In this document: positions 12,446 through 59,562 of the stretch, piece after piece
How positions within the stretch are numbered: position 1 is the first letter of the stretch
Layout of the letters: each line of letters starts with the position of its first letter
Assembly (NCBI GenBank): GCA_033807695.1
Contig: CM066306.1
Span: forward strand, 2,914,001 to 2,978,000
Reading direction: 5' to 3'
DNA: 64,000 bases
Source: Daedaleopsis sinensis
Taxonomy: Eukaryota > Basidiomycota > Agaricomycetes > Polyporales > Polyporaceae
Made by a program: the position numbers and the translations under genes
Notes under the pieces: generated by a model
Database searches by the model: none
Told to the model about the DNA's origin: nothing
Seen by the model: only the letters and a program-made list of their open reading frames with translations

Positions 12446-13352
12446 TGATGGGGTAACTCTGGGTCGCTGGGCGAAACACACACCCAAACGAGCACGAGAT
12501 CAGCTACCAAGTAGGGTGCGAGGTGGAGGACAGGTTCCCGGTGTAGTCGCTCTTCTTCACGTAGCTCGTCGACGATAGACAAGGAAGTTGAGCAACTTCA
12601 GATGGAAGTCAAGCAACTTCCGTGGGTGAGGCTAGTCTGCAAGAGGAGGTTTGAAGACGGACGGTCTTCAATTGAGTGTCGACTAGATGATTCTTGGACT
12701 CGGACTCGATCTCTGGAGCTACTGCGCTGCTTTGCTGGGCCGCAATCCCGCTGGCTTATATACTGTACAAATCGTCACCAAATAAACTACAACTATCCTA
12801 CCAATCGTCCAATCATAGGAAACCCTGCTCCTCCCACGCTCACGTCGCGATCCTCCTCTCCTGAACCCCTACGGCGCACTCCGGTGGTTAGGTAGGTGTT
12901 TGCACCGAGCCTATCACGTCGCCGCTCGACTTGCATCCGCGGTCACGAGAGCGCTTAGTCTTGTGGCGCGTCACCACGTGATCGCGTCTGAAGTCCATCC
13001 GCCCGTCTTCATAGGCCTCGGAAGGCCGTCCCCCTCACTCCCTTGTCTTCCGTGCCTCTTCCGACGACCTTCGTACCAATTGCTGGACTCCGTGGCGGTC
13101 GCCTAGACCAGACCCTCGATCGATCGCCTCCTCTGTCCTGGCTAGAGCTCTGGCGACCTCGGTCAGCCGCCGGCAGCTCGGCATCGGCTCCTTCGACCCT
13201 TGGAATGGCATGTCTCCGTACTCGCTCCTTCGGTAGTCGCTCGCCTTCCTTGTGAAGCCGCTCGTCTTCATACTGCGTGAATTGTCTGACGGGCGCGAAT
13301 AGTGATGGGCTGCGTGGTGTTTCCGGGGCTTAGCTGGTCCTGAGGCTCATCA
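12446..13352 (-). repeat. Element 1 3' LTR
   Basis: 907 bp, matching 24232-25138 with a single difference seen (C at 12875 versus T at 24661). Termini are TGATGAGCC...CCCCATCA in element orientation. Confidence 0.95.
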
Positions 13353-13366
13353 CCTCCCCCCCACTT
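13353..13366 (-). promoter_or_regulatory. Element 1 terminal polypurine tract
   Basis: AAGTGGGGGGGAGG on the minus strand directly abuts the 3' LTR, the position of the plus-strand DNA primer. The same 14-mer recurs at 17568-17581. Confidence 0.85.
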
Positions 13367-13393
13367 GCATTCGAACCGTCCTCGGTTTGCGCG

Positions 13394-13400
13394 TATATAA
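13394..13400 (+). promoter_or_regulatory. TATA box of first antisense gene
   Basis: TATATAA ends 36 nt before the ATG at 13437, on the strand opposite to gag-pol. Confidence 0.6.
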
Positions 13401-13436
13401 ACTCCCTCGTTCCATCCTCGGTTTTCATCCTTCGCA

Positions 13437-14007
13437 ATGTCTGCCTTCATTTTCCTCAACGTCCCCATCCTCACGGAGACTGTCCGTCAGCTTGAAGTCG
13501 CGATCTCTGAGTTCGAGGCTCTTGCTGCCGCTCGTACTGAAGAGGACGTTGGAATCATCTACGATTCCTACGACCATATCGCTGAACTGGTGGTACGTCG
13601 TCCTCCTTCCGCGTGTAGGCCCTCATCTTCGTGGCTGACTGTCTTCATGGCAGGACACTTTGATCACCTTGGGGGACGATGGCGAGGTTGCCGCGGACTT
13701 CGTGAAACGGACCGAGAATACGATCACCGAGGGCTGGCCTGCCTTGGCTGACCGTCAGCTCTTCCTTTTCCAAGAGCTTGTCGCCCGGTCCCGTCGGTGC
13801 GCTCGTCGGGCCGATCTCGATGCCCGTCGCATTGCCTGTCAGCAGCGGCTCCGGAAGCAACTCTGCGCGCGCCGCGTCCTCAACCGCGCCGGAGGGTCCT
13901 TGATCACGGAGTCTATTCTGGTTGATGCCCGGATCCGGAAGGTCGAAAAGGAAATGGAGGAGATAGATCAGGAGTTTGCCAGCCTCCGAGAGGACATCCA
14001 CTTTTGA
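13437..14007 (+). CDS. Element 1 antisense gene 1: small helical protein
   Basis: Exons 13437-13592 and 13654-14007 with a phase-0, 61-nt GT-AG intron give 169 aa. The protein is mostly charged and predicted helical by composition; the C-terminus (KVEKEMEEIDQEF) looks like a coiled coil. No known domain is recognised. It is the first of three consecutive genes on the strand opposite to gag-pol, lying between the terminal polypurine tract and pol. Its layout (helical N-terminal exon of about 52 residues, phase-0 intron, then a GDDGE-type start to exon 2) matches the gene at 49469-50046 in element 2, whose exon 2 has GDPED at the same place. It also resembles its neighbour at 14070, so the two probably arose by tandem duplication. 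A TATA box lies 37 nt upstream. Function is unknown. Confidence 0.72.
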
Positions 14008-14021
14008 GTAGCCGCTTGTCG

Positions 14022-14027
14022 TATAAA
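14022..14027 (+). promoter_or_regulatory. TATA box of second antisense gene
   Basis: TATAAA (context GTCGTATAAAG) ends 42 nt before the ATG at 14070. The same GTCGTATAAAG context precedes the element 2 gene at 50046. Confidence 0.6.
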
Positions 14028-14069
14028 GCCGCTGTAACTGCCTTCGAAGTTCATCAACTTCCATTCATC

Positions 14070-14724
14070 ATGTCGTCGACCGTCCTCCCGCGTACGCTCG
14101 CCCTCCAAGTCAGCTCGCACCGCGAGTTGGCCCTTGAACTCCTCTCCCCGCTTCGTGCGCACATTGTTGAGCAAATCGAGTTCTTCGAGACGGTATCCGT
14201 CGACCACGGCTGTCCCCGCGTTGTGTATGAACACGCGCTTTCCCGTTTAGGACAACTTTTGGTGAGCTTCTCGGCCTGCTGCTTCTCGCGCTTGATTGAC
14301 ACCTTCCCAGTATGGTTGGAGCATGCTTCATGACGGCCTTCTCGTCGGCGTTTCCGACCTACTTGCCCGCGTGTCCATCGCCATCGACCAGTGTTTCTTC
14401 TCCAACGGCCTTGAGGCGTTCCTTGTCGACCTGGTCCAGACGCACCGCCTGCCGTACCGCCTCCACTTCCTGGACTCAGTGCATGCCACTCTGCAACACG
14501 AACTTCAACTCCTGGAGGTCATGCGCGACCTGGCGCGCGACGACCGGTACCGCGTTCATTTTTCGGAAGTACTCGCGCGTCTGGAATTGGTCGCCGCTGA
14601 ACTGCGCGGGGTGCGTATTGAGCAGTCCGCCCTCCACGCGGCCATCAAGAAGCTGGAAAGGTCGCCGTCCTCTCTGTCAGACGAGGATGAAGTCTTCGGT
14701 TCTATTCCTTTGATGTGCGACTGA
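14070..14724 (+). CDS. Element 1 antisense gene 2: small helical protein
   Basis: Exons 14070-14261 and 14311-14724 with a phase-0, 49-nt intron give 201 aa. Rich in Leu, Glu, His and Arg; the second exon is one long predicted helical region (for example HATLQHELQLLEVMRDLARD) followed by a Ser/Asp/Glu tail. It shares the exon plan of antisense gene 1 and of the element 2 gene at 49469: short helical N-terminal exon, single phase-0 intron, helical C-terminal exon. No family recognised. It starts only 63 nt after the stop of gene 1 but has its own TATA box, so separate transcription is likely. Confidence 0.7.
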
Positions 14725-14897
14725 TTGGGGCCGCCCTCGATCGCCGTCGCGCGGAGAGCGCTTAGATTACCGCATTTGGACGTTGTACTTCACGGCTCCC
14801 TTCACGTTCTTCTGACTGCCGCCCTTAATAAACGTTTTGGCCTTCGGGTTGTCCGCCTTCGTGCATTCTCCTCTCGTCTTCTCATCCATCGCCCACC

Positions 14898-17161
14898 ATG
14901 TCCGCTTCCAACCGTCGCTCGTCTTCCAACGTCGCCGCCACTCGCTCGTCTTCCGATGCTCCTCGGCGACCGATCCCCAAGGAGCTGTTCAAGTGGCTCC
15001 CGTTGCAATTCACGCGTGAATCCGATCGACTTGGCTGTGAGGAGCCCGTTCCCACTACGCCTGACGAGCTTCGCGATCAGGACGCCGCTCCGCTGACGAT
15101 CAGCGACTTCCGGGCGATCTTGGAAGAGTACACCGACGACCAGCTCGCTACGTTCTCATATGGCACGTTCAAGGCCATGTTTGATCGTATCGTCATGGCT
15201 CTGGTACGCCGTCCCGGCCTTCCAAGTCTTGTCTCGCTGACACATTCCTTTTTCGCAGCACCGTCTCGTCCCGGAGTGGAATTGGTACCTGGATCCCCTG
15301 CTCCTCGCCGCGCTCCCGACGTTCGAGTTTTACGCGCCGCCCTCCCTAGTCTCGGAGTTCTTTCGCTCGTACGCGCTGACTTCTCGCCGGTTGCGGCTGT
15401 TCGCGGTTTCGAGCACCGTAGCGGAGTCCCCCCTGGAGATCGACATCGCCTTCCAGGCTCACCGCCTTCGGCTGGGCTTCTTCGAGCGTAAGTACTTACG
15501 TTCTTCGCCCTCACTGTTGCTTGACTAAGACCGCTCCTCCTTGCAGTGAACTGGTACCACGAGATCATCCAGCCACGCTGGATGGAGGTCGCCGATTACC
15601 CGCCCGACATGCGCGCCTCTCGGGAAACCATCGACACTCGCGTCGACCAGTTCTTGCCTCTGCTGTCCGGCATGCGTTACGTCCCGGTCCTCGACAAGAA
15701 GCGTCTCACGAGGATACTCGTCACACGCCCCACTTCCTCGTCGACCGCGCCTTCGTCTGACCCCGATGCCCTTCCTGGCGACGCCTTCCTGGCTGCGATG
15801 GTCACTGGTGTCGAGTACGTTCCCGAAGAGGAAGCTTCTGACGACGAGCCTCTGGCCGACGCTGCCCAGCGCGACTCTCCTCGTCGTTTCCGCACACGCT
15901 CCCCCCTCTCGCCTGACCAACCTCCTCCTCCTCCGCTGTCTCAGCTGCCGCTGAAGAGGAAGAAGACGCCCCTCTTCTTCAGCACCGATGAGAGCGAGCC
16001 GCCCAAGAAGCCCGTCGACAAGGGAAAGCGTAAGGCGGTGTCTCCTCCCGCGGACGATTCCGACCGCGATGCCGAGGGCGAGGTCGACGATGAAGGCGAA
16101 GAAGAAGTCGACCAACTCGAGGAGGAGGAGCCTCCTAAGAAGAAGTCCCGCACCTCGCCCCGCAAACGTCCGCCTCCCGTCGTCGAGTTGTCGCCTAGGG
16201 TCAAGAAGCGCGACAAGAAGCCTCCTTCCACTCGCCAAGGTTCCGTGGAGTTGTCCAGCGCCGTGCAGATCGAGGGCGACTGCGACGAGTGCCGTCGCGC
16301 CGGGGTCACCTGCAGACGTCCGGACCCTTCCGCGTTCCGCTGCAACTTCTGCAAGAAGAAGGGGAAAAGCTTCTCTTGCGCGTACGACCACCTGAGTGTC
16401 CAGGGGACGGTCAAAGGTCAGTACCTTCCCCCTTCTTCTCTTGGTCTTCTTGCTGACTTCTTGTCTTCTTTCTAGTGCACGCCCGCATCGGCGCGATGTA
16501 CAACGGCGTTGGGTTTTCCTTCCGGGAACCCTCGCAGCTGCCGCCCGCCGACCGTCTTCTCGCCGTCGACTTCGTCCGCCAGTTCGAGAGGAACTCGCAC
16601 AAATTCCTCTCCGTCGACAAGGCCGCGCTCCAGGAGCGTCTTCGTCCGAAGACCATCCGGAAGGACACCCCCGTCTACCCGTACCCGGAGGGTCCTACGC
16701 GTTATCCTTCGCTCGACGAGAAGGGCCGCCTGCTCGAGGACTATGGCAACAGCAAGGCCGAACCCGACGACTCTACGCCTCCTCCTCGTTCGTCTCGCGC
16801 TTCTGGCAGCGTCAAGAAGGAGAAGCCGAGTCCCTCCAAGTCGACTTCCCAACCGGCGACGCCCCTCAAGATCTCGATCAAGTCCTCATCTTCCAAGCGC
16901 AAGTCGCCGGAGCCGGTCAGCTTCTCGCCGGAGGTCGTCGCGAAGGTCAACCATCTTCGCTCGCAGGTCAGCCTCGCACGCGCGCGCATCGTCGAGGACC
17001 TAGTGTCCATTCGGCAGCTTTCCCGCCGCGAGACTCGACAGACCCAGCTCGATTTTGGCGTGAAGATCGAAGGGTGCGACGACGTGCGGTCCTTCAAGGA
17101 CTTGGTGGCGTCCAATGGCTATCGTGAGGATCTCCTCGAGCTTCTTCGCAATGCCGAGTAG
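14898..17161 (+). CDS. Element 1 antisense gene 3: zinc-cluster protein
   Basis: Four exons (14898-15203, 15259-15487, 15547-16416, 16476-17161) with introns of 55, 59 and 59 nt give 696 aa; phases are consistent. The N-terminal third is helical. Residues about 230-410 are Ser/Pro/Glu-rich with basic runs such as KKKSRTSPRKRP that look like nuclear signals. A cysteine cluster at residues 424-456 has spacing C-x2-C-x6-C-x9-C-x2-C-x8-C, which fits the Zn2Cys6 (Gal4-type) binuclear cluster, although it sits mid-protein rather than at the N-terminus. After it comes a conserved YNGVGFSF block shared in pattern with FNGHGFTF of the element 2 protein. DNA binding in the nucleus is a reasonable inference; targets are unknown. 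TTAATAAA lies about 66 nt upstream of the ATG. The gene is convergent with pol and ends about 450 nt from the pol stop. Confidence 0.75.
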
Positions 17162-17612
17162 GGACTTCTTCGACGCGCGCGCGTCCACGGACTTCTTGTT
17201 ATTAGCTTTTCTTGTCATCTCCTGCTTGGTCGTCGTCTCGTCCTGTCGTCGCGCGGCTCGCGCTGTTTTGTTTTTCTGTTTTTCGCATATATCCCCTCTG
17301 CTCTTCTCTGTCTCCCGCGGACTAGTCTCTCCGTCTCCCTCCTGTCGCTCTGGGCTTTGTAATGTCTCCTTCTGGTTTTCTTTCCCGTATCCCGTCGCGC
17401 TCAGCTTCTGTTGTCCGTCTTAATCTGTACTGTATCTAGTATCCCGAATGTATCGCATCGCCTTCTGCTCTTCTTCTTGTGTGATCTCCGAGATGACCGA
17501 CGCGCGAAGCGCCTCTTGAAGCGCTCTTCGGCCTGTAGAGGAATTGACTTCCGTAGTCAAGCGACTTCCTCCCCCCCACTTTTTCCATTTGACGTCCTCG
17601 TCAACGTGAGTG
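17162..17612. other. Spacer between convergent antisense gene 3 and pol
   Basis: Pyrimidine-rich on the plus strand. It holds the internal polypurine tract copy (17568-17581) and presumably the 3' untranslated regions of the converging transcripts. Confidence 0.5.
17568..17581 (-). promoter_or_regulatory. Internal copy of element 1 polypurine tract
   Basis: The 14-mer AAGTGGGGGGGAGG, identical to the terminal tract at 13353-13366, lies about 30 nt downstream of the pol stop. It could act as a second plus-strand priming site or mark the ancestral junction of pol with the LTR. Confidence 0.7.
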
Positions 17613-20600
17613 TCAGCCGTGTTCGTCGTCGTCTGCTAATCCTTCCTCTTCGTAGTTTTCTGTTGTGTTTTCTAATTCTTGCAGTCGGCTCTGTGGTGCG
17701 TCCAGTTCCTCAATATTGAAGTTGATTGGGTCCTCACGCGCTAGGTAGGGGATGATTCTGAAGGCCGCTATGGGTCGATCGAAGACGGTCCCATCGAGTT
17801 CTGCAATGATGTACGCGCCGCCTCTGTTGCGCGATATCACTACTAGAGGGCCTAGGTACCGTGGTCTCATCTTCCTGTTGAGCGACTTCTCAATTGCCGT
17901 GTTCCGCATCAGAACCAGCCTCCCTCGCTGGAAGTTGAAGTCTCGGATGGTTGCGCTGTGTTCCTTCTCGAATAGCTCCGCAGCTTGGACGCGTGTTCGG
18001 TAGACGGTTGACCGCAACCGCGCTATGTCCTCCGGTCTTTTCTGCAAGGCCATCGCCCTGTTGGTGATCAACTCCGTTGTGGACACGAGCTTCGTCGGTA
18101 TAGGCAGCAGGTACGTGGCTTCTGTGACGTCCATGGGCAGGATTGGATCCGTCCCAGTTACCGCGTAGTAGGGTGAGCAACCTAGTCTCCTGCGTACTGT
18201 GATTCGGTCCGCCCAGAGTACTGAATATACCCGCGCCACCCATTGCGTCGTATCACCTTCGCATGCTTTGAAGAGCGCGTCCCGGACGTGGAAATGAGGC
18301 CGCTCGACGATTCCGTTCGCTCGTGAGTTGTATCCTGAGATCCGTATATGCTTGACGTGGTATTGCTTTGCCAGGTACTCCAACGCTGCAACCCATGGAC
18401 TTCCGTTGTCTGACACGATCTCGGACAGCGCTCCCCATCTGCACAGCAGGTCTTGATAGATCCAGTCGCCGACCGCCTTCGCTGTTTGGACTGTACTTGC
18501 CCGCCCTTCAGCATAACTTGTGGTTGCACACCTCGCATGGAAGAAGTGCTTGTACGAGCCAGGCATGTCCATAGAGTCGACGTGAACTCGTACGAACGGC
18601 GCCGCAGGATAGGAAACTGAAGGTGGTATGTAGATCCGCGTAGTTTGTCGAATTTGGCATTGGTGGCAGCTTCTCACATACCAGGCCACATCCGCCTTCA
18701 TTTCTGGCCACCAGAACCGTTCGGCCACGAAGGAAATTGTCGCCTGTACGCCTCTGTGTCCTATGAAGTCGTGCATACTCACGAACGCTTTCGCTCGTAG
18801 TTCTGGGGGTAGTACTCTCCTGTGGTTCCCGTTCTTTGCTATCTTCCATAGTCGGCCATCCTTCACGAAGAATTGTCCTGCGTATTTGACGAACGCATCG
18901 AGCTCCTTCTGAACCAGCTTCGGTCTTCTCTTGGTGCACAGAAATTCGTAGACGTTCGCTATTCTGTAGTCAAACTTCTGGGCAACCTCCGTGCGCGGTA
19001 CGATTGCGTAGTCAATTTCTGGAATGTCCGGTAGCTTGCCCGCCGTCCCGCTTGTCTGCTGCATGAGCGCACTGAAGCCCATCGCTTCCGTCTTGAAGTT
19101 GCTCGTTTTCCGCTTAACCTCGTGTTGTAGAGGAGCGTCTCCCAAGTGTGGAGGTGGATTTATGAGGTGTGTAAAGCCGTACATGTTGTCCACCCAGTCA
19201 TCGAATTCTCCGTTGTCTGCTTCTTCTGGTTCGTCTTCAGGCTGCGCAGGTCGTCGGCTGAGACCGTCCGGTCCATGGGAGATTCCAGGTACGTGCCGCA
19301 TTTCGAAGTGGAACATATTGATGCTAATGATCCACCTATTCATGACCGCATTCGGCGCGACATCCGGATTCTGGATCATGGCTTTCGTAGATGTCGCATC
19401 CATTTCTACTATTAGGTTTCGCACACCGACCAGCCAGAAGCGGAGCGCCTTCAATGCTCGGTACAGACCATATAGCTCGAGCTTCGGTTGCGAGAATCTG
19501 GCTTCCCTTTCGTTCAAGGTAATGGATCCAAAGCGGTTGTAGTATCGTTTCCGCGGGTCTTCCGGATCCTCTTGACACAGCTGGTAGCCGACCGCGATAT
19601 AAGAGGTGTCCACCGCTAGAATTACCGGGGCCTTCGACTCGTAGTTGATCGACTTCAAGGCCGGGGATTCCACTAATGCGGTCTTTAGATCCTCCATGGC
19701 CTTGTCCTGTTCCTCTCCCCATTCGAACGGTACGTCCTTCCGCGTGAGCTTGACTAATGGCGCGGCCTTCTTCCCGAAGTTCTTGATGAAGATCCTCCCA
19801 ACGCCTACCGTTCCCAGGAACGACCGTACTTCGGAAACATTTTTACACGGTCCCCATTTGAGTACCGCATCCACGCAACCTCTCTCTGGAAGACGGCCTT
19901 CCGGTGTGCATCGATGTCCCACCGCTACGAAGTCGCGCGCCGCGCAGACGAACTTCTTGCCCGAGAAGGTACCTCCCGCATGTTTCATCCGCTGTACAAT
20001 CCTGTTGACGTCTTGCATGTGCTCCCAGATGTACCTCCTGATGCCTGGATTCCCCTTCATACACTCGAAAGAACCATCTTCCCGTTCGTAGGAAGACTCC
20101 GGTCCAATGACAGGTACGTCGTCGATGTAGGGAATCGTCGTATCCGGAATTTCAGGCTGCAATATGTAGGTCACGTCGTCATGGAAGATGGGTACTGAAT
20201 TTGTCCATCCCATTGGTAGCGTCGTCAGTCGCATGGCTCCGAAAGGCGTTTGGAAGGTCGTGAGGTCGCGCGACTCTTCGTCCAGGATCCTCTCGTCGTA
20301 TCCAACGTATAGATCCAAGGTCGTCCCGCACGCACGCCCTGCAAAGCGTTCCGCCATGTGGTCGGGTATCGGTGGTACACCGCTGTGTTGAATAGAGACT
20401 CTGTTGAGCGGCTCCAGACTATGGACGATCCTCAGACTCCCGTCCTTCTTCAGCACACAGAACCACCTGGATCGGTAAGACGCATTTGAGGGTTCGTATA
20501 CGCCTGATTCTATTTTCTTCTTCATGATCTCACAGATTTGTCGGTAGGTTCCGGGTGGAATGGGGAAATTCGTTTCAATCCACGGAGTGTGAGGCACAAC

Positions 20601-21383
20601 CGCAAACTTCACTGGTGGGAACATGTCCGTCCTGAAGTGGCCACGCTCGCTGTCTTCCCAAGCGAAACCCTGCTCCTGTTTGCACATCATGTCGTCTAGC
20701 AATGCTAGCTCTTCTTCTGATAGGTGAGCATTGACTTTGTGGAGCTTCTCGCGTCGTTCAGCGGTGTACCGCCCAGTTGGTTCAAAAGGCTTTGGATTGA
20801 GGTTAAGCGGCTTCATCCCTTCGAGAGGGTCGCCGATTATCTCCCGTACAATTCTGTACTGCTTGGGAAGCTCCCCAATCACTGGTCGTACTTTCTTATC
20901 CACTGGCTTGTACTTCTTCTTCGATTTCACGTAGCTGCGTACGCTCTCGGGGTCCTCGGTGGCTGCTTGCCGCTCGTCGTCTTCTGGAAGTTGCTCGCCT
21001 TCCGCCTCTTGTTCTTGCTCGCTCGGCTCAGTTTTCTCGCTCGCTCTTGCTGCTTCGCTGGACCTAGACCGGGTTCTGACTGCTCTTCTGCCTCTGGTTT
21101 TCGTAGCGTATACTGGGAGTGCTCGTCCTCGGAAGAGGGCTCGGTCGACTTCGCGATGTGGTTGTCGGCTCCGCATTCTATCCCCTTCCGATTCCTGGAT
21201 CGGTACTTTCGAGAACATGGTTTTGATTTTCTGCTTTGTCTCGGAGTCGTCACAGGCCGATAGATATGCTGACTGAATCGTGGAATTTTCTAGGTTTTCT
21301 AAGTCCTTGTACGCCGTCGTGAAAACTTGACCCGTTCTTGCGTCATAGTCGAGGACGAGAGCGACCTCTCCCTGACTGTTCAT
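17613..21383 (-). CDS. pol: Element 1 Pol: reverse transcriptase, RNase H, integrase
   Basis: 1256 aa if started at the ATG at 21383; the frame is open further upstream. The RT has YRSRWFCVLKKDGSLRIV, TLDLYVGYDE (Asp357) and the YIDD box (419-422). RNase H has Asp592 (LAVDTSY), Glu636 and Asp662. Integrase has the HHCC zinc finger (His871, His876, Cys906, Cys909) and catalytic Asp936, Asp992 and Glu1027, a D-x34-E spacing one shorter than the usual Ty3/gypsy 35. A GPY/F-like RYLGPLVVISRNRGG module follows; no chromodomain was seen. Protease is encoded at the end of gag. The pol frame is -1 relative to gag, and conserved residues encoded upstream of the ATG argue that Pol is made by -1 frameshifting rather than by new initiation. 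It copies the RNA and integrates the DNA. All catalytic residues appear intact. Confidence 0.95.
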   Translation of the reverse strand: MNSQGEVALVLDYDARTGQVFTTAYKDLENLENSTIQSAYLSACDDSETKQKIKTMFSKVPIQESEGDRMRSRQPHREVDRALFRGRALPVYATKTRGRRAVRTRSRSSEAARASEKTEPSEQEQEAEGEQLPEDDERQAATEDPESVRSYVKSKKKYKPVDKKVRPVIGELPKQYRIVREIIGDPLEGMKPLNLNPKPFEPTGRYTAERREKLHKVNAHLSEEELALLDDMMCKQEQGFAWEDSERGHFRTDMFPPVKFAVVPHTPWIETNFPIPPGTYRQICEIMKKKIESGVYEPSNASYRSRWFCVLKKDGSLRIVHSLEPLNRVSIQHSGVPPIPDHMAERFAGRACGTTLDLYVGYDERILDEESRDLTTFQTPFGAMRLTTLPMGWTNSVPIFHDDVTYILQPEIPDTTIPYIDDVPVIGPESSYEREDGSFECMKGNPGIRRYIWEHMQDVNRIVQRMKHAGGTFSGKKFVCAARDFVAVGHRCTPEGRLPERGCVDAVLKWGPCKNVSEVRSFLGTVGVGRIFIKNFGKKAAPLVKLTRKDVPFEWGEEQDKAMEDLKTALVESPALKSINYESKAPVILAVDTSYIAVGYQLCQEDPEDPRKRYYNRFGSITLNEREARFSQPKLELYGLYRALKALRFWLVGVRNLIVEMDATSTKAMIQNPDVAPNAVMNRWIISINMFHFEMRHVPGISHGPDGLSRRPAQPEDEPEEADNGEFDDWVDNMYGFTHLINPPPHLGDAPLQHEVKRKTSNFKTEAMGFSALMQQTSGTAGKLPDIPEIDYAIVPRTEVAQKFDYRIANVYEFLCTKRRPKLVQKELDAFVKYAGQFFVKDGRLWKIAKNGNHRRVLPPELRAKAFVSMHDFIGHRGVQATISFVAERFWWPEMKADVAWYVRSCHQCQIRQTTRIYIPPSVSYPAAPFVRVHVDSMDMPGSYKHFFHARCATTSYAEGRASTVQTAKAVGDWIYQDLLCRWGALSEIVSDNGSPWVAALEYLAKQYHVKHIRISGYNSRANGIVERPHFHVRDALFKACEGDTTQWVARVYSVLWADRITVRRRLGCSPYYAVTGTDPILPMDVTEATYLLPIPTKLVSTTELITNRAMALQKRPEDIARLRSTVYRTRVQAAELFEKEHSATIRDFNFQRGRLVLMRNTAIEKSLNRKMRPRYLGPLVVISRNRGGAYIIAELDGTVFDRPIAAFRIIPYLAREDPINFNIEELDAPQSRLQELENTTENYEEEGLADDDEHG

Positions 21384-21407
21384 CAGATCCTCGAAGCCCG
21401 AAAACCC
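21349..21407 (-). promoter_or_regulatory. Element 1 -1 ribosomal frameshift signal
   Basis: In gag frame the codons read G-GGT-TTT, the X-XXY-YYZ heptamer GGGTTTT (21407-21401). After a 6-nt spacer comes TCGAGGAT (21394-21387), which pairs with GTCCTCGA (21356-21349), an 8-bp stem with one G-U pair; the 30-nt loop can form an inner GAGAG/CTCTC hairpin. The gag TGA falls inside the structure. The same arrangement occurs in element 2. Confidence 0.8.
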
Positions 21408-24265
21408 TCGACTCTGAGTCCATAACTCGGAGAGTCTCCATGCGCGTAGGTCGGTAGCGTCAGTTCGCGGTTCGAGTTAGGGCAAGTGACGGTAATTGAC
21501 AATTGTCCATCCATAGAGTTGCTCGACCTCGCACGCATCACCGTCATGAACGGCCTTCCTAGGAGGATCTGGTAAGGCGCTGCCTTCACCACATGCATCT
21601 GGAGGTAGACCACGATCCCGCCACCTAATTCCACAGGCACGTTCTTTGCTAGACCGAGTGTCATGTCGACCGTCCCATTTGCGCTGATCATCCTCCTTCG
21701 CTTGGTAGGATCGTAGGGGATCTTCAACGCATAAGCAATTTGGTCGTTTATACCGACGATCTGGGACCCATCGTCGAGTGTACACTCTGTCGGCGTGTCC
21801 GTTCGAGCTACCCAGGTGAACAGCGACCTCAGCTTCTCCGATTCCGAGGCTACGATGGTTGACTTCCGCCGACTGCTCGCAGGATAGCCTTGTCCCGGAG
21901 CTACATACGGGGCATTGTGCGGCTTTGGCTCTTCGTCCTCGTCCTCGCTGCCTTCATAGTCCAGGTCTACAAATGCAAAGGATCCAAGCGTCGGCCTTCC
22001 AGTCCCTGAGGATGAACTTCCTGCTGTCTGGAGGTTGTCTTCCGGGAAGTCTTCGTCTTCAGCGACTTCGGTCAGTAGTACCTTGTTCCGAGGCCGCTCG
22101 CCTTCCCGGTTGGTCACTTCCTGCAGTTGCTCGTCTCTAACTTGCGTTCGCCTGAGAGCTGTGGCCTCATGCACTCGCTTCCTGAGTCCTGGAGAAATAC
22201 TGAGTAGCTCGGCTGGTGACACTGTGATACTCTGGCTGTCTCCGAAGCTTCGGTTGAAGACTCTTTCTTCCGCGGTTGGGTCGATGATCGCTGCGGTCCT
22301 TCTGACCGGTGGTTCGTCCTTCTTCGGCAGTTCCTGGCCTCTGGGTGCCACAGTCGGCGCATAGGGATGGAAGGTCTCTTCAGGCTCTTTTGCCCTCGTG
22401 TCCCAGGTAACGTGCTTCTCCTTCTCCTTCCCCTTCTCTCTCGTCGGCTGGTGAGGCGGCTGATCACGCTCGGGCGTCCCTGCCCGCGTGTCGTCCCTCC
22501 CTTTCTCCGAATTGCGCGTAATACGTCGAGGCCGCGTCTCTAGCTCGACTCCATCAAAAACCTGCCGTCCCGAGCGAGTGTTCATGCGCTCTTTAACCAT
22601 GTTTGCCTTGTGCATGAGGACTTCTAACTCCTCTTCCAAGGTACGCTCGTCTTCCTGCATCTCGAACTGATAGATGTTGCTCATGGTTCCTCGCGCTCGT
22701 TGGTTTGGGTTCTTTTCGTGCCAAGCATTGACTCTATCGCGCATACAGTTCCCTGGCAGACTACGAGGGATCACACCGCCTCCTGGTAGGATGATTTTGT
22801 CGTATACGTCCTTCCGGATGAGTCCCGCCGTCATGTCCTCTGCGACTTTCGGGCACGTCTTCAACCGACATCCCGGTAGGCCACAGTAGATGCATTCGTC
22901 GTTAGCGGGTGGATTACGTCCGTATAGGCCCCCTTGCTGCTGCTGGTACCTTCCCTGGGGAGGTTGTGGTGGTGGAGGGTATTGTTCCCCTTGTTGCGGT
23001 GGTTGCGTGGCTTGCATCCTCTGCTGGCTCACGAAGTCGCGCATGGTCGAACTCATCATGGAGATCATCTCCCGCTTGAAGGCCGATAGATCCGGCTCGG
23101 TTTTCACCGTAACCGTGGAGGCCATGGCTGGAGCCGGAGGATTGACTCGAGCGAGGTTACCGGACGTCGCAGTTGACCAACTTCCGATCCCGCCGAACGG
23201 GCCTCCGTCCGCCAGACAATAGGAAATTGCTTCATGAACTTGCGCGACCGTGTAAGCTTCTTCTTTGTGTTTGGCAGGCACCTGGTGTGCTAACCGCGCG
23301 GATACCGCCATTGTGTACTGCATAGGAACTAGCCGTAGCAAGGCTGTCGACGCGTCGCGCTCCGTTAGCTCTGGCTCGGTCTTCGCATGCAAGTACCGGT
23401 AGATGGGATAGAATTTGCCGTAGAACTTCATGTAGGTTTCGAGGCTGGATATCCCCGTACGTACGGCTTCCCCGATGACTTCATTGTATTCGCGCAGTGT
23501 CCAGGTGTACTGGGCATCCGTCCCGAGGTAGAAGGATAGAACCTCCGTCTTGAATTCTTCATACGTCTTCTGGGTGTCCGAGAACGTCGGCAGGGACTTC
23601 CATCGCTTGGCGACTCCCGCTGGTATGTAGTCGACCGCCGCCGCCTTGCAAGCTTGTTCATCAGTGATGCTATGCTTCTTCAGAAGTCGGGCAAGGTCGT
23701 CAAAGTACCGCTCGACGGTGTCCTTAGATTCCTCATCGAATTGGGGCGCACTCCTTTCCGTACGCAACGGTAGTTTCGATAGATCTGCGCTAGCCATTGA
23801 ATGGATTGTAGGTGGTACTACGGGTGGTAGAGCCGTAGGTAATATTTGAGCGGCGTAGGCTAGCAGTGAAGGAAGGGGGTTCCTAGGTAGGTTGAAGGCC
23901 CCTGCGGTATGTGATAGCGTAGGTCTTGGGTTACTAATTGATTCTGAAGTCAGGAAAGGATGGTCCGGAACTTCAATGTCCTTCTGCTCGTCTTCGGAAG
24001 CGTCCTCTAGTTCGGTAAGCGGAGAGTCTGCGAAAACCGCGAAGTTGTTCTCGATAACGGTAGTGATCTGCTCTGCTCTCTCGGGGTCTTCTGCTTCGAT
24101 TTCCTCTAAAGCCTGTTCGGTTTGTCGATGGAGGCGACGGATACGTTCGCTCCGCGTCGGCCGCAAACGTGGGATTCTTGAGCCGGAACCGGTGGAGACT
24201 GTTCTTGTACCCCTCGCGGTGGGCTCCAGAATGATGGGGTAACTCTGGGTCGCTGGGCGAAACAC
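21383..24265 (-). CDS. gag: Element 1 Gag with zinc knuckle and aspartic protease
   Basis: Open for 960 codons from a GTG at 24265; no in-frame ATG exists upstream, so the true start may be Met157 (MASADLSKLP), where elements 2 and 3 also have a Met, or an LTR-encoded start reached by a frame change. Retrotransposon Gag core spans about residues 170-350. A CCCC knuckle, CIYCGLPGCRLKTC (458-471), has Cys in place of the usual His. The C-terminal retropepsin has LDDGSQIVG (Asp831; the common form is D-S/T-G) and ILLGRPF. The stop TGA overlaps the pol ATG as TGATG. Gag forms the virus-like particle; the protease matures it. The frame extends across the primer-binding site into the LTR. Confidence 0.92.
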   Translation of the reverse strand: MFRPATQSYPIILEPTARGTRTVSTGSGSRIPRLRPTRSERIRRLHRQTEQALEEIEAEDPERAEQITTVIENNFAVFADSPLTELEDASEDEQKDIEVPDHPFLTSESISNPRPTLSHTAGAFNLPRNPLPSLLAYAAQILPTALPPVVPPTIHSMASADLSKLPLRTERSAPQFDEESKDTVERYFDDLARLLKKHSITDEQACKAAAVDYIPAGVAKRWKSLPTFSDTQKTYEEFKTEVLSFYLGTDAQYTWTLREYNEVIGEAVRTGISSLETYMKFYGKFYPIYRYLHAKTEPELTERDASTALLRLVPMQYTMAVSARLAHQVPAKHKEEAYTVAQVHEAISYCLADGGPFGGIGSWSTATSGNLARVNPPAPAMASTVTVKTEPDLSAFKREMISMMSSTMRDFVSQQRMQATQPPQQGEQYPPPPQPPQGRYQQQQGGLYGRNPPANDECIYCGLPGCRLKTCPKVAEDMTAGLIRKDVYDKIILPGGGVIPRSLPGNCMRDRVNAWHEKNPNQRARGTMSNIYQFEMQEDERTLEEELEVLMHKANMVKERMNTRSGRQVFDGVELETRPRRITRNSEKGRDDTRAGTPERDQPPHQPTREKGKEKEKHVTWDTRAKEPEETFHPYAPTVAPRGQELPKKDEPPVRRTAAIIDPTAEERVFNRSFGDSQSITVSPAELLSISPGLRKRVHEATALRRTQVRDEQLQEVTNREGERPRNKVLLTEVAEDEDFPEDNLQTAGSSSSGTGRPTLGSFAFVDLDYEGSEDEDEEPKPHNAPYVAPGQGYPASSRRKSTIVASESEKLRSLFTWVARTDTPTECTLDDGSQIVGINDQIAYALKIPYDPTKRRRMISANGTVDMTLGLAKNVPVELGGGIVVYLQMHVVKAAPYQILLGRPFMTVMRARSSNSMDGQLSITVTCPNSNRELTLPTYAHGDSPSYGLRVEGFRASRI
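24211..24228 (-). other. Element 1 primer-binding site
   Basis: TGGAGCCCACCGCGAGGG starts 3 nt inside the 5' LTR on the minus strand; TGG complements the CCA end of a tRNA. The same 18-mer follows the 5' LTRs of elements 2 and 3, and with one mismatch that of element 4. Confidence 0.85.
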
Positions 24266-25138
24266 ACACCCAAACGAGCACGAGATCAGCTACCAAGTAG
24301 GGTGCGAGGTGGAGGACAGGTTCCCGGTGTAGTCGCTCTTCTTCACGTAGCTCGTCGACGATAGACAAGGAAGTTGAGCAACTTCAGATGGAAGTCAAGC
24401 AACTTCCGTGGGTGAGGCTAGTCTGCAAGAGGAGGTTTGAAGACGGACGGTCTTCAATTGAGTGTCGACTAGATGATTCTTGGACTCGGACTCGATCTCT
24501 GGAGCTACTGCGCTGCTTTGCTGGGCCGCAATCCCGCTGGCTTATATACTGTACAAATCGTCACCAAATAAACTACAACTATCCTACCAATCGTCCAATC
24601 ATAGGAAACCCTGCTCCTCCCACGCTCACGTCGCGATCCTCCTCTCCTGAACCCCTACGGTGCACTCCGGTGGTTAGGTAGGTGTTTGCACCGAGCCTAT
24701 CACGTCGCCGCTCGACTTGCATCCGCGGTCACGAGAGCGCTTAGTCTTGTGGCGCGTCACCACGTGATCGCGTCTGAAGTCCATCCGCCCGTCTTCATAG
24801 GCCTCGGAAGGCCGTCCCCCTCACTCCCTTGTCTTCCGTGCCTCTTCCGACGACCTTCGTACCAATTGCTGGACTCCGTGGCGGTCGCCTAGACCAGACC
24901 CTCGATCGATCGCCTCCTCTGTCCTGGCTAGAGCTCTGGCGACCTCGGTCAGCCGCCGGCAGCTCGGCATCGGCTCCTTCGACCCTTGGAATGGCATGTC
25001 TCCGTACTCGCTCCTTCGGTAGTCGCTCGCCTTCCTTGTGAAGCCGCTCGTCTTCATACTGCGTGAATTGTCTGACGGGCGCGAATAGTGATGGGCTGCG
25101 TGGTGTTTCCGGGGCTTAGCTGGTCCTGAGGCTCATCA
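24232..25138 (-). repeat. Element 1 5' LTR (promoter side)
   Basis: 907 bp, one difference from the 3' LTR. A TATATAAG box (minus, 24548-24541) lies upstream of an ATG at 24368 whose frame encodes a hydrophobic stretch (YLVADLVLVWVCV) running toward gag. Confidence 0.95.
24541..24548 (-). promoter_or_regulatory. LTR TATA box of element 1
   Basis: TATATAAG on the minus strand, the only strong TATA match in the LTR, about 170 nt upstream of the first long-frame ATG at 24368. Confidence 0.5.
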
Positions 25139-26297: not shown

Positions 26298-27023
26298 TGT
26301 CACGGGTGCTGTGTCGTCCAGGCGCGGACAAGACGAGTCTAACCCTGCAGAGGAAGGTTCAAGGCACTACGCGACAGAGGCGAGGCGACGGATGGCACGA
26401 GGGACCTCATTTAAGGGTACGCAGCGCAATCGACGCGACGGAGCATAGTCTTCGACGCAAGAAAAGCGTTTCTACGCGACGAGCGGGCGGAGCAGGAGGT
26501 CTATGAGAGCACGAGATATCACGGTACGGGCGGGCGCTGGGGATAGGCGAGGCGTAGGCGAGGCAGGCGGGATTGGCCAACGCACGCTAGTCGGTCGGCA
26601 AGAATCGGCCCAGGCCCCTGGACGTGCGGGCGATAAGTATGCGCATAGACGACCATCGGACAGGACTACTCTTTCCACCCCCGCATTGTTTTCACTACGA
26701 GCTCAAAGCTCCATCCACAATCTTCTATTCCGTAGTCGAAGCCGGTCGAGGGCAGTCGTAGCCCACAGCGTGTCGATTCTCCGTCGAAGCCGTATCGACA
26801 AACTCTCTTCCCCTTTGACGTGTCATCGACGTGCCTACGGGCCATCGATTAGCGTGCACTAGGTGTTCGACTTCTCAATCGTCTCGCTCCCGTCCGTCTG
26901 CGGACACTGTCTGGTCCATTTCCTCGTCGAGAACCTCAATACTCGCTAGCCATCAGGCCACGAGTGTCGCGCCCGATCCGGTAGCTGTTTTCGACACTAC
27001 CGTAGAGCCCCGACAGCGTTACA
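26298..27023 (+). repeat. Element 3 5' LTR
   Basis: 726 bp, TGTCACGGG...GCGTTACA; about 4% different from 52973-53698, mostly transitions. Confidence 0.9.
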
Positions 27024-33556: not shown

Positions 33557-33601
33557 ACTCTTCGATCTTCTGCTCCCCTCTCAGCCCTTCCTCCCGCCAC
33601 C

Positions 33602-37784: not shown

Positions 37785-40700
37785 TCAATCATGGGTAGAG
37801 GCAAGAGGTCGAAGGTGTTTAAGAAAATCAAGGTCGTACCGTTCGGTCGCAACCATCTCGGCACAAAGTTGCACAGCTTTCTCCATCTCGTTGCAGCACG
37901 ATATGGCTTCGAACACGACACTCGACATCCCAAGATCTGCACTCTCATCTGCCTCGATGACCCCATAGAGATCAGTCGCACGCAGGAAGGCCCGATGCCA
38001 AACCAGCTCCGCCATCTGACACCAGTAGGACTCCAGGCTGGTGGCGATGGACCGTTGGAGTGTAGCTGACAGCGCGCCACCGTGACGCTGTTGGGTGCCC
38101 CACAGGCCCAGCCCTGTATTTTCGAGCCTCAGCGGCCATCGCCGACAGCCTGACCGCCGACGCCACGGCGGTAGGACCAGCGCCGACTCGCCACCGACGG
38201 AGACGTGGACCGCGCGCCCCCGACGGCTAGCAGTACGGAACGAGGCTGGGACGGCGCGACGCGGAAGCACAGCCACCGTCACGACGAGAAGGTTGGTAAG
38301 CGCTGGGGCGAGGTTTAGGGCCAGGGGACGCAGGGTCTCAGATAGCGGCGGGTTGTTAGTCAGACGGCGGGTTGGATCACGCGGGACCGGCCGTTCGTCA
38401 CGGCGGTAGTACTTAGTTCGCGCAGTAGTGTCTCGGAATTCAGTTTTGGTTTTCCCCTCCAGAGTACGGATTTCGGCGATGTCGGAAACGCCGACTGTCG
38501 TCGTCGACGCACTTTTTGGCCTCTACGCTGCGTTCTCTTTAGTCTGGATCGTCCGTCCTGCTGTCGCTTACGCTTCGTCGCTCTACGTCCGTCTCCACTC
38601 GCACAAACTCGCCCGGCGCCCTGCCGTGACTCCCTCAGCGTCGTCCTACACGGTCGGCGCGACGCCGACTCTCGGCGGTCTCCTCGACGTAGTCGTCCGC
38701 CTCTTGTCCCTCCTTGACCCGTCGACGCTCTCTCGGCTCGCCGCTGTGATTGGGAATCGACTGGACTCCCCGCCTTTCTTGTTCTTCTGTGGTCTTCTGG
38801 TTGGTTTCAGCCTTAGATCTACGGTCGACGTATCATTTTGGAGCCCACCGCGAGGGTTTCTCAGTCGACTACCACCAATCAAGCTGGCGTCGCCGACGAG
38901 CCAGCCGTCGTCGGGGTCGGGGTCGCCGTCTCGGCCCTCGTCACCGCCTTTGCCCCAGCTGCCGGAAGACTGGACGGACCCCGAGGCAGTGAACCGATGG
39001 TTTGCCCAAAGTTTTGATCTGATTAATTTTTCGGAACAGCTCGCCGACGAGATTGAAGAAACCGGGACGCAATTGGCTGCACTCCGCGGGAGGCTGGATG
39101 AGACCTCGGGCATGAATCAAGAGAATTGTGCGACCGGCCGACCAGGGATCCCGCCAGGAACAGGACCAAGCGAACCTTCGGGAGCTACAAGTGCCCCGCG
39201 ACCTTTGACGAACCGCCGACGAACCCCCTCCCCCGAAAATCCCCCAACGTCCTTTCCCACCGTGACTCGCACACGCCGAGGCTACGAACAGAGCGGCGAA
39301 CAGCCCCTTGCGCCCATCGCCGACGTTAACCGCCTTACCTCGCGCCGAAACCCCCGTCCTACCGCCGACGTGCAGCGTCCCCCGCACTCTACCGCGTCGA
39401 CCCTCTCCTCCCTATCCAGTCTCTCAACCACGACCCCGAATCCCATCCCCGTGCCAGCGCCGACCCAGATCCTATTCAGAATGGCTCACCAAACCGGCTT
39501 TGCGGCGCTGCCCATGCGTAACCAGCGCGGAGCCCCGGTGTGGGAACCGTCGGCGAATCCCACCAAGACCTGGGCTCTCCGTTTCTTCGACCAGGTGGAC
39601 CGGGTCATCGCCAACTATCAGATCGCCGACGACACCGAGAAGAAGAAGACACTCGCGATGTACGCCGAGGTCGACTATGTGCGTATGATAGAATCCCACC
39701 CCCACTTTTCCGATGCGTCCAAGACCTACGCCGACCTCAAGAAGTCTCTACTGGAGTTCTTCCCGGGCCTAGAGGATAGCAAGCGCTGGACAGTCGACGA
39801 GTACAACGCCGTTGTCGGCGAGTACCTTCGGCGCTTTGGAGTCAGCACGCTGCCGGAATATCTAGCGTTCTACCGCCGGCTCTACCCTATCGCACTCTAC
39901 CTCGCTCGCGACAAGCCGACGAGGGATTTGACGGAACGGGAGGTCACCAGCACAATGATGAAGGTCCTCGACACCGACCTGGCCCAGCGGGTCCAAGCCA
40001 GGCTCAGCTACAAAGTCGCTAAGGACGTCAACGACTCCTACAAGATGGAGGACGTGCATGAGGCAATCTGCCACTGCTTCGGTAACGACAACCCGTTCCA
40101 TGCCGCCTACGAGCAGCCGACCAGGACCGCCGCCGACGCACCGCCGACGCAGACCCTCGGCGCCACGCCGAACACCGCGGCCGTGTGGACCCCGCAGACG
40201 GTTCGACCGGCCCCAGCCTCCGACGACGTCGTCATCAAAGCGGAAGTCTTTCAGAGTATCATCAGCAGCGCGGTCCGCGACGCCGTAGCCGCGATTCAGC
40301 CGGTCCTCCAGGCAGCGAACCAGCAAGCCTCGAACGGCCCGCCGATGAATAACCCCTACCAGAACGGCAACCAGTACCAGCAGGGGCCGCCGCCGAACGC
40401 CTATCCCCCGCCGTCGCAGAACGCCTACCAGCAGCAGCAGAACCGGCCCTGGCCAGCCAACGACTACCCGAGGCCTCCTAGAGAACCGTGCTACTACTGT
40501 GGAATCCCGGGCTGCCGGACCCGTACGTGCGGCGCCGTGGACCGGGACGTACGTGAGGGTCTGGTCCAACGCCACCCCGCTACTGGGCGAGTGCTCCTTC
40601 CCGGCGGCGTCGAAGTACCGAGGCACCTTCCTGGTCGCTGGCTTGTCGACCAAGTCCGGGCCTGGCACGAGCAGAACCCGAACCAGAAGGCAGGCGTCGG

Positions 40701-43700
40701 CGGACCCGTGGGCCAGATGATGTTCGCCATCGCCGACGGCTTCGGCGCCCTACAAAGACCTACTGCGGCGCCGGCCACGTACGTCAACAACCAACAGTCC
40801 GTCCTGGTCTCGGAGGAACGCAGTATGGAGGAACATGTAGAGTGCCTCGCTCAGCACCTGGCTCTAGCCAACGACATCCTGGAGAAGAAACGCGGCAACC
40901 AGAAGCCAAGGCAAGTGTTCGACGGCGTGGTAATCACGTCCTTACCGCCGAAGAAGACGACGAGGACGGTCCGGCTGAATCCCGAAGTGGTAGAACACGA
41001 GCCGGACGCGCAGGAGGATCCCGTCGAAGAAGGCCAGTCTCCCGAGGGGCCATCGGACGTCGCCGACGCAGACGCGAGTGTCAAGCCAGACCGCACGCGC
41101 GCCCGCTCCCCGACGACCGAAGACGACGACCCGACGTTCCCCCCCCTTCCGTTTGCGACGGCGCGAGATGCAACCCGCGCGGGTGATCCCCCGACGCACG
41201 AGTTCTCCTACCGCCCCGCGACGGCGCCGCCGCCACGTCCTGCGCGCTCCGCCGAGAGACAGGCAGCCCCGACGCCGGCGTATAAAGTCGCGGCGCCGAT
41301 CGCCGACGAGACCGCTGCGAAAAGAGTCTTCAGTGCCAACTTTGTAGAGAAAGAATCGGTCACCCTTACTCCCGCCGATCTTCTACGTATATCCCCCGAC
41401 GTCCGCAAGCTCATGCAGGAGGCCACGGCGTTGCGCCGTACCCCAGTGCCAGTAGTCGACTCGACGACCCCCGTCGGCGGTAGTCTGCGGTACGGGCCTG
41501 TCCGCCAGTCGCCCCGCGTCGAGGAGGTCCCCGACAGCGAGGACCGTTTGCACGCACCGTCGAACATCCCCCAGAACTACCTTCCGCCGGCGGACGCTCC
41601 CGCTGGGCAGCAACCGAGGCCTAAGGGAGTGTACCGAGTCAACTTGATCGGCGCCGTGGGTGCCCGGGTCTCCGCCGACGCGAACGCCGACAGGATCGTA
41701 GCCTCGAACAGCTTCAAGCTGCGGTCCATCGCCACCTGGGTCAACGACGCCGACATTGTAGAGTGTATCCTCGACAGCGGGTCGCAAATCGTGTCGTGTA
41801 GCGTCGACAAGGCACACGAGTTGGGGCTCAGTTGGGATCCGACGGCGCGCATCACGATGATGTCGGCCAACGGCGAGGAACAGAGCACGCTTGGTCTAGC
41901 CCGCGACGTGCCCGTGGCCATCGCCGGTGGAATCACGGTCTACCTCCAGATGCACATCGTCCAGAACGCCTCCTACGACGTCTTGCTGGGCCGACCATTC
42001 GAGGTACTGCTGTCCGCCGAAATTCGGAACGAGGCCGACGGTCGGCAGACGCTCGAAGTTACGTGCCCAAACACCGGGAAGAAGATAGCAATGCCTACGT
42101 ATGCGAAGGGGACGGCGCCGGCGGGAATGCGTGAGATGCCGATGGGTTTTCGGTGGTCGAGGATGTAGAGGCCGACGATGAGAACGTCGCTCTCGTCCTC
42201 GAGTATGACCATAGGACCGACGAGTTTTTCCTTGTTTCCCAGACCCCCTTGACCGATCTCTCTCCCAAAAATATACAAGAAACCTACGTTCGCATGTGCG
42301 ATGATCCCGACCTTTCTCCACGTCTCCAGCCCCTTTTGTCCGCTGTCTCGAATGGTGCCGTAGCCGGCGCCGCCCTACCCACACCCGATACCCTCTCGGC
42401 GGACCGCCGACCGATGCCCGCAGGTAGTCGGGCCACCAAGGCAGTACCAAAACCCGTCTATGCGACGAGATCCCTACCGCGACGCTCCGCCAAGCGTCGC
42501 CACACCACCCCTCCGGAGGCCACCGTGCCAAGTACGCCGACGTCGAAATCGCCGAAGGAGGCGGTGGTGAACGTTTTCACATATTTCCGTAGCCACGTCT
42601 CACCACCTGCGCCGTTGCAAGTCGAGACCGAGGCCGACACCGAAGCCTGCACGCCACTCCCGAACAGCGCGTCGGCGCCGCGCCGAAAAACGTCGGTCAC
42701 CGACGTGACCGAGACCGCCGAGGATGCCGAGGTGCCCGTGGACGTCTTCCTCAAAACCAAAAAGAAGTACAAGCCCGTGGCGAAGAAGGTCCGGCCAATT
42801 ATGACAGACCTGCCCGCCGAGTTTCGCATCGTTCGACAGATTATCGGCGACCCGCTCGAAGGACTGCCGGAGCTGAACCCGAACCCGCCACCGTTCGCGC
42901 CCGGCAAGCGGTACACGGCAGAGCGCCGACAAACCATGCGCGAGAAGCACAAGTGGCTCACGCCGGAGGAGCTCGACGTGCTCGACGCCTTTTTCCTAGC
43001 GCACGAGGACGCTTTCGCTTGGGAGGATTCGGAGCGGGGCACGCTCGACAAGGACATGTTTCCGCCGGTCAAGATTCCTGTGGTTCCGCACAAACCTTGG
43101 CGACAAACGAACTTCCCGCTGGCCCCCGGTGTCTATCGACCAGCAACCGAGCTCCTCCGAAGGAAGATCACCGCCGGAGTGTACGAGCCGTCGAACTCGT
43201 CCTACCGGTCCCGATGGTTTTGCGTGCTCAAGAAAGACGGCTCGGTTCGCATCGTACACAGCCTGGAGCCACTGAACGAAGTCACTATCCAGCACAGCGG
43301 CGTACCGCCGATACCCGACCACATCGCCGAGCAGTTCGCCGGAAACTCGTGCGGAACCGTGCTAGACCTCTACGTTGGCTACGACGAACGGCTACTCCAC
43401 GAAGACTCTCGGGACTTGACCACTTTCCAGACCCCCTTCGGCGCTATGCGCCTCACCACGCTCCCCATGGGGTGGTCCAACTCCGTACCTATCTTTCACG
43501 ACGACATCACCTTCATCCTCCAGCCCGAAATTCCGCACTGCGCGCTCACGTACATCGACGACGTGTTTGTCAAGGGGCCGAAAAGCAGTTACCAACGCAT
43601 TGACGGTTCCTACGAATGTATCCCGGCAAACCCTGGGGTCCGCAGGTATTTCTGGGAGCACCTCGGCGACCTCAACCGTGTGGTCCAGCGCATGAAACAC

Positions 43701-59517: not shown

Positions 59518-59562
59518 GGTGGCGGGAGGAAGGGCTGAGAGGGGAGCAGAAGATCGAAGAGT

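Follow-up and report, generated by a model that had tools for sequence, protein, structure and literature searches.

A 64,000-nucleotide window of the polypore Daedaleopsis sinensis (GenBank assembly GCA_033807695.1, contig CM066306.1; C7:2914001-2978000 in the contig numbering used here) contains a Ty3/gypsy-type retrotransposon, element 1, in which three spliced genes, here denoted A, B, and C, occupy the region between pol and the 3′ long terminal repeat (LTR) on the strand opposite to gag-pol. We show, on the evidence of nucleotide substitution patterns, that A, B, and C code for proteins, and that three families of elements in the same genome (51.6 Mb in 24 contigs) carry two or three such genes at this antisense position downstream of pol. 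The cassette is almost certainly both protein-coding and heritable. As read in four subfamilies (element 1, element 2, 3a, and 3b), the sequences further show the cassette to be bracketed by two copies of a polypurine tract.

The antisense genes evolve as protein-coding genes

The three antisense gene models were proposed in an initial annotation of the window, and rebuilding them from the sequence gave the same lengths (169, 201, and 696 aa) and the same five introns (Table 1). All five are GT–AG introns of 49 to 61 nt with a YTGAC branch-like motif before the acceptor, and the reading frames of A, B, and C close exactly after intron removal. The length of open reading frames (ORFs) was rejected as evidence for genes: the longest open stretch on either strand of the cassette region is 389 codons, which is not beyond chance when compared with 200 second-order Markov sequences (longest open stretch: median 272, 95% 388, maximum 486 codons). 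Since the open length is unremarkable against these sequences, the evidence of the initial annotation is by itself insufficient.

Subfamilies 3a and 3b were compared using one copy of each (L076 and L077, respectively) read over the cassette. The ratio of nonsynonymous to synonymous substitution rates (dN/dS) is 0.116 for gene A (bootstrap 0.073–0.180), 0.147 for gene B (0.094–0.225), 0.423 for gene C (0.340–0.515), and 0.060 for pol (0.042–0.083), with relocation nulls that average 0.91 to 1.05; the introns are 50 to 61% and the spacers 53 to 66% identical. Synonymous divergence is ≈1 in A, B, C, and pol alike (0.95–1.12), which argues that the cassette and pol diverged together. In gene C, windows of low ratio cover residues ≈100 to 200, the cysteine cluster (see below) and the part that follows it, and the C terminus, with linkers reaching up to 1.33. 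Both subfamilies encode an A protein of 189 aa and a B protein of 215 aa, and the first introns of A, B, and C fall in the same codon, in phase 0, in the models used. For gene B of 3a and 3b, the models were picked among several fitting intron choices, and the 3a intron has no YTNAY motif in the strict sense. Even without splicing, gene A of 3b has an open frame of 190 codons; its spliced form was taken by homology. All four C proteins have a phase-0 first intron, whose alignment column is shared by element 1, 3a, and 3b; that of element 2 occupies a different column, where the alignment is gappy. Gene C of elements 1 and 2 has two further introns in each case, none of which lies in a shared column or is found in 3a or 3b; relative to the cysteine cluster, the third intron is downstream in element 1 and upstream in element 2.

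Within family 1, 30 of the 37 places with gene C were compared. Gene C, followed from the codon at 15000, is open in 29 of these copies, with GT at the three donors in 29, 28, and 30 and AG at the three acceptors in 30, 29, and 30 of the 30. Once the copy that is not open (L019) is excluded, the other 29 harbor 56 nonsynonymous and 107 synonymous variants, a ratio of 0.52 relative to 2.72 expected. Exon 4 of gene C in family 2 gives a dN/dS of 0.271. The comparison of dN/dS across copies, suggested with the initial annotation as a check, thus points to purifying selection on A, B, and C (3a/3b, family 1, and family 2), and the proposal that the cassette is a heritable part of its family is borne out by three cassette-bearing families, by selection on three proteins, and by splice sites that are largely kept.

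A TATA-like box had also been noted upstream of each gene. This stands for gene A, with TATAAA 41 to 50 nt before the ATG in all four subfamilies, and fairly well for gene B of element 1. In 3a and 3b, gene B is preceded by no more than a CATAAA, 78 and 83 nt away. The case is weak for gene C: element 1 has an AATAAA 71 nt before it, element 2 a CATAAA 148 nt before it, and 3a and 3b no such box.

The cassette accompanies pol in three families

The genome lists score the best candidates only, and all copy counts are therefore lower bounds. The pol copies listed number at least 34 in family 1, 6 in family 2 (element 2 included), and 10 in family 3; the pol of a further family, family 4, is represented by six rows, some of them fragments, that are 55 to 72% identical over the matched part. 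Gene C is listed at 37, 6, and 10 places in families 1, 2, and 3, respectively, and the genome search revealed none beside a family 4 pol. It is antisense to and downstream of the neighboring pol in 47 of the 53 places listed, the others comprising five without pol within 8 kb and one paired with a same-strand pol. Gene C is present with 47 of the 50 pol copies of families 1 to 3, and its exon 4 is stop-free in 33 of the 37 family 1 places. Gene A matches are listed 34 times in family 1, 11 times in family 3, and in all six copies of family 2. For gene B, family 1 has 35 rows, of which 32 are near full length, two are pieces of the same copy, and one is a short relic; family 3 has 10 places plus two relics. 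The gene B relics at C12:16587-16895 and C3:4683699-4684007 contain one stop each, and one of them lies 16.6 kb from a contig end.

The initial annotation saw related cassettes in elements 2 and 3 of the window. Element 2 does carry A and C, with no recognizable gene B, and the genome searches with gene B list no place in family 2. The antisense ORFs of element 3, which adjoin one LTR, are only putative relatives: their similarity is weak, with tblastn E values against a 2-kb stretch of 0.008 and 0.036 at best. An open relative of one of these element 3 stretches, 75% identical, is found at C6:3595234-3595590, within 30 kb of partial family 1–like gene C copies at C6:3610411 and C6:3622907.

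In family 2, exon 2 of gene A (49470–49813 in element 2) is 97 to 100% identical in DNA and 100% identical in protein in 6 of 6 copies. Exon 4 of gene C in the C6 copy (C6:3217027) retains only 74% protein identity, with a proportion of synonymous differences (pS) of 0.44, and the C1 copy (C1:1515866) differs from the C6 copy in this exon by 8 nt. The contrast between a conserved gene A exon and a diverged gene C exon gives family 2 a mosaic appearance and suggests recombination between subfamilies.

A polypurine tract pair brackets the cassette

The internal tract of element 1 is an exact 14-nt copy of the terminal tract, a match found in none of 300 mononucleotide shuffles (a 12-nt match occurs in 6 of 300). 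In element 2, the internal tract is a 12-nt copy of the terminal tract at 50197–50208 (1 of 300 mononucleotide shuffles). The tract pair extends over 18 nt in 3a and 15 nt in 3b, both matched by eye with no shuffle test; the LTR starts of these two subfamilies are taken from the TGATG that follows the tract, as their LTR pairs were not read. The sequence of the tract varies among families 1, 2, and 3, and the two copies agree within each element.

Family 4, for which 1.2 kb of one copy (L078) was read and for which the counts include fragments, shows a simpler arrangement: the pol stop is followed by a 167-nt spacer ending in one tract and then by the LTR start TGATG. This LTR recurs with 100% identity at C8:3640104-3640765, which defines an element of ≈8.3 kb, and a similarly spaced pair is present on C11. 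The family 4 copy read is without a cassette and is thus ≈8.3 kb versus 12.7 kb for element 1, and its terminal tract sits where families 1 to 3 have the internal tract. The polypurine bracketing of the cassette, with the inner tract at the site of the terminal tract of a sister family, is a new observation of this analysis. Because family 4 is more distant in pol (≈61% versus 68–70%), the simplest reading of these sequences is that the cassette was gained between the tract and the LTR in the ancestor of families 1 to 3.

These features may be joined in one tentative picture, which we consider quite possible while stopping short of calling it probable. The cassette would be a polypurine-bracketed island that arose by one acquisition between the polypurine tract and the 3′ LTR, with a second working tract at its inner edge, tract copies that evolve in concert in each family, and the capacity to be exchanged together with the LTR between subfamilies by recombination. 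If true, this would represent a retrotransposon-borne regulatory island, with intron-bearing genes that persist only because they are antisense. The polypurine signature may help find more such cassettes.

Properties of the encoded proteins

A, B, and C of element 1 match no Pfam family at E ≤ 1, and A of element 2 returns a chance-level match only (HetR_C, 0.7). The gene C core conforms to CX2CX6–10CX8–9CX2CX6–9C; the six cysteines and an NGxGF motif are invariant in 5 of 5 aligned cores, and the other cores are 29 to 35% identical to that of element 1. Judged against the consensus of the Zn2Cys6 family, the cysteine spacing in these cores forms the two CX2C-anchored halves of that pattern. 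Runs resembling nuclear localization signals (NLSs), according to a pattern of our own (K[KR]x[KR] or four basic residues), are found in four of four C proteins and in none of seven A and B proteins, and gene C also carries an acidic stretch. A PDB search with gene C lists nine sequences at E ≤ 10, six of which we take to be Zn2Cys6 factors. It is the six-cysteine pattern, the NLS-like runs, and these PDB matches that lead us to read C as a putative regulator.

The AlphaFold model of B exon 2 consists of helices predicted with modest confidence, and an hhalign comparison of A with B, made to look for a common origin, returns a probability of 7.3 and an E value of 0.005. An Env-like or membrane role was considered and rejected, as strong hydropathy is not common to these proteins: the maximum 19-residue mean is 2.19 in A of 3a and ≤1.84 in the other ten proteins (1.08, 1.05, and 1.73 in A of element 1, element 2, and 3b, respectively). 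A search for relatives in IMG/VR viral contigs gave 347 pattern matches, none of which was confirmed.

A proposed role for the cassette and its alternatives

The likeliest reading, which we consider somewhat more probable than not, is that the cassette provides a Ty3/gypsy-type lineage with an antisense module of accessory genes in which C serves, together with A and B, as a nuclear regulator of the element's own LTR or chromatin. The module would have been inserted between the ancestral polypurine tract and the 3′ LTR. A, B, and C would have promoters of their own, that of gene A lying next to the LTR at the TATAAA upstream of the gene, and these promoters would allow the antisense genes to be made independently of the LTR promoter. 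The genomic RNA that is copied has the opposite polarity, so that the cassette introns would be present there as reverse complements, would not be removed, and would survive retrotransposition; this argument follows from the general properties of splicing and reverse transcription. Gene C would give rise to a putative nuclear Zn2Cys6-like DNA-binding protein that, with the smaller A and B, may act on its own LTR or chromatin by activation or anti-silencing in a family-specific manner, and such specificity would fit the fast evolution of C around conserved blocks. These features suggest that the elements bring their own regulators.

A number of observations weigh against this proposal. The Pfam Zn_clus model matches two of the five C members below the cut-off (best E 0.13, 12.9 of 21 bits), the PDB matches to Zn2Cys6 factors are not significant (E 2.6–9.8), and the top PDB match (E 0.071) is unrelated. 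The AlphaFold models are weak, with a mean predicted local distance difference test score (pLDDT) of 66 and 50 for sets of three and four sequences, too weak for fold searching. For elements 1 and 2, no family-specific repeated motif of the LTR or spacers exceeds the shuffle maxima, and no target site is visible. Donor sites of gene C are altered in one and two of the 30 family 1 copies, and between-family dN/dS ratios are higher (0.41–0.55 for A, 0.45 for B, and 0.75–0.83 for C), at a divergence that is saturated and uninformative. Family 4 could have lost the cassette rather than never had it.

Among the alternatives, it is unlikely, if by no means far-fetched, that A, B, and C act after transcription in the manner of retroviral accessory proteins, helping with the export of RNA, the assembly of particles, or the entry of the pre-integration complex into the nucleus. 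Constraint is tighter on the small proteins A and B than on C, the modeled helices of B exon 2 would be compatible with such a role, and a function of this kind is discussed for plant antisense ORFs in the accessible part of PMC7264820; however, the six-cysteine cluster, NLS-like runs, and acidic stretch of C look nuclear and DNA directed. That the antisense transcript itself is what matters, through double-stranded RNA or transcription interference that limits copy number, seems improbable. The sense genomic RNA and the antisense mRNAs would overlap over ≈4 kb, and this possibility is raised in the accessible part of PMC7264820, but it leaves unexplained both the dN/dS of 0.12 to 0.42 on three frames and the intron positions kept while introns and spacers diverge, and frame-preserving selection speaks against the transcript as the sole function.

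The gene models look like those of a host in having introns and promoter-like boxes, and might instead be recently captured host genes that ride as passengers, an origin to which we attach very little weight: genome searches with the exons of A, B, and C match element copies or pol-less partial copies, no separate intact host gene stood out among the best candidates (with weak matches such as C11:2920299, E 0.6, left aside), and the cassette is kept under constraint across three diverged families. Least credible of all are chance ORFs of GC-rich DNA joined by arbitrary splicing. Open stretches of such length are indeed common by chance here, and the latitude noted above in the models of gene B (3a and 3b) and gene A (3b) is of the kind that chance would allow, but the codon-position pattern, the dN/dS values, the same-codon first introns of 3a and 3b, and the kept splice sites all speak against it.

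Relation to known antisense genes of retroelements

The cassette is a multi-gene, spliced version of antisense genes known mainly from plants. Lentiviruses and Ty1 possess extra polypurine tracts within pol that provide a second plus-strand start; the internal tract described here differs in marking the boundary of pol and the cassette, and its priming role is putative. HBZ of human T-lymphotropic virus type 1 (HTLV-1) resembles the cassette in being an antisense gene of a retroelement that encodes a nuclear regulator, and differs in belonging to an animal retrovirus and in being a lone bZIP gene with its start inside the 3′ LTR. An antisense promoter of HTLV is mentioned in the accessible part of PMC7264820.

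The plant elements Retand, Grande, and RIRE2 harbor antisense ORFs between pol and the 3′ LTR according to the accessible parts of PMC7264820 and PMC11963269, in agreement with the initial annotation, which had named all three. As described in these parts, they share with the cassette its position and orientation and a putative nuclear or DNA-binding product; Grande additionally has an antisense ORF with its own promoter, and Retand is likewise a non-chromovirus. The Retand ORF contains TRP28 (PF04195), whereas A, B, and C of element 1 give no match to this family. The main text of PMC11963269 never uses the word "intron", and polypurine bracketing is not mentioned in the accessible parts of either source. 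The function of antisense genes of LTR retrotransposons is called unknown in the accessible parts of both sources.

The initial annotation could place no parallel to an antisense cassette in a fungal element, yet there is a fungal precedent in brtn, an antisense gene of the Boty elements of Botrytis cinerea, which the accessible parts of PMC7264820, PMC8365987, and PMC4227169 attribute to Zhao et al. (2011, Virology 417:248). Boty is likewise a fungal Ty3/gypsy element with an additional gene antisense to gag-pol; as compared by description rather than by sequence, it differs in having one named gene versus two or three here, and in the chromodomain of its pol (PMC4227169, accessible part). 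No chromodomain is found among the matches of element 1 pol (Pfam, E ≤ 1), which sets it apart from chromoviruses and Boty-like elements. LTR elements of bdelloid rotifers show some likeness in their captured ORF3 and extra family-specific ORFs, which are missing from the earliest branches, and differ in that antisense intron-bearing genes are not described in the accessible part of that source (PMC5408684). Among the titles and abstract openings listed from the literature searches, which represent a minority of the hits and a coverage that leaves out most subscription journals, none describes an antisense cassette of several spliced genes in an element of a basidiomycete, and the word "antisense" does not occur in PMC3248453, which treats LTR retrotransposons in fungi. 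The many near-identical young copies, three diverged cassette families, and cassette-less sister family in one genome make the role of antisense genes testable, and offer a natural example of how genes with several introns may persist in a retroelement through the choice of strand.

Element architecture in the window

Element 1 is a young copy, with a single mismatch between its LTRs over 907 sites. Elements 1 and 2 have the paired LTRs, target duplication, primer-binding site, and polypurine tract of Ty3/gypsy (Metaviridae) elements (Table 1), and element 1 has the corresponding domain order of gag followed by reverse transcriptase (RT), RNase H, and integrase. Element 2 has the same primer-binding site as element 1, and element 3 shows the first 15 nt of it. 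Pfam matches above the cut-off in element 1 pol are RVT_1, RT_RNaseH, RT_RNaseH_2, and Integrase_H2C2, with the integrase core domain not among them, and the protease-like match of element 1 falls slightly below its cut-off (26.4 versus 28.2 bits). Element 3 is older; it carries a gag-like ORF, its pol is not seen in the window, and it contains element 2 (38089–50955) together with one hAT-like copy.

Table 1. Features of the three LTR elements and their antisense genes, in window coordinates.
Feature	Coordinates	Strand	Description
Element 1	12446-25138	−	Ty3/gypsy-type, ≈12.7 kb
Element 1 3′ LTR	12446..13352	−	907 nt, TG...CA
Element 1 terminal polypurine tract	13353..13366	−	Abuts 3′ LTR
Element 1 TATAAA box, gene A	13396..13401	+	41 nt before ATG
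Element 1 gene A	13437..14007	+	169 aa; one phase-0 intron, 13593-13653
Element 1 TATAAA box, gene B	14022..14027	+	48 nt before gene B
Element 1 gene B	14070..14724	+	201 aa; one phase-0 intron, 14262-14310
Element 1 gene C	14898..17161	+	696 aa; introns 15204-15258, 15488-15546, 16417-16475
Element 1 internal polypurine tract	17568..17581	−	AAGTGGGGGGGAGG; 31 nt after pol stop
Element 1 pol ORF	17613..21383	−	RT, RNase H, integrase H2C2
Element 1 gag ORF	21383..24265	−	Protease-like C terminus; ORF as listed extends into 5′ LTR
Element 1 primer-binding site	24213..24228	−	TGGAGCCCACCGCGAG; 3 nt inside 5′ LTR
Element 1 5′ LTR	24232..25138	−	4-bp target duplication GCGC outside both LTRs
Element 2 5′ LTR	38089..38835	+	4-bp target duplication ACGC; 100% identical to 50209-50955
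Element 2 pol	42153..46079	+	
Element 2 internal polypurine tract	46095..46106	+	GTGGGGAGGAGG; 15 nt after pol stop
Element 2 gene C	46612..48910	−	710 aa; introns 48781-48730, 48398-48352, 47950-47884
Element 2 gene A	49469..50046	−	174 aa; intron 49866-49814
Element 2 3′ LTR	50209..50955	+	
Element 3 LTR pair	26298-27023, 52973-53698		95.9% identical; target duplication GTAAG
Element 3 antisense ORFs	51778..52810	−	Adjoin LTR 52973-53698

The window also harbors two copies of an ≈6.4-kb DNA transposon in opposite orientation (30980–37404 and 55715–62139) that are 99.95% identical, end in short terminal inverted repeats, and have target duplications of 8 bp, GGTCCACC and AGCGTAAC. The terminal repeats and the 8-bp duplications are as in hAT elements, to which this transposon presumably belongs.

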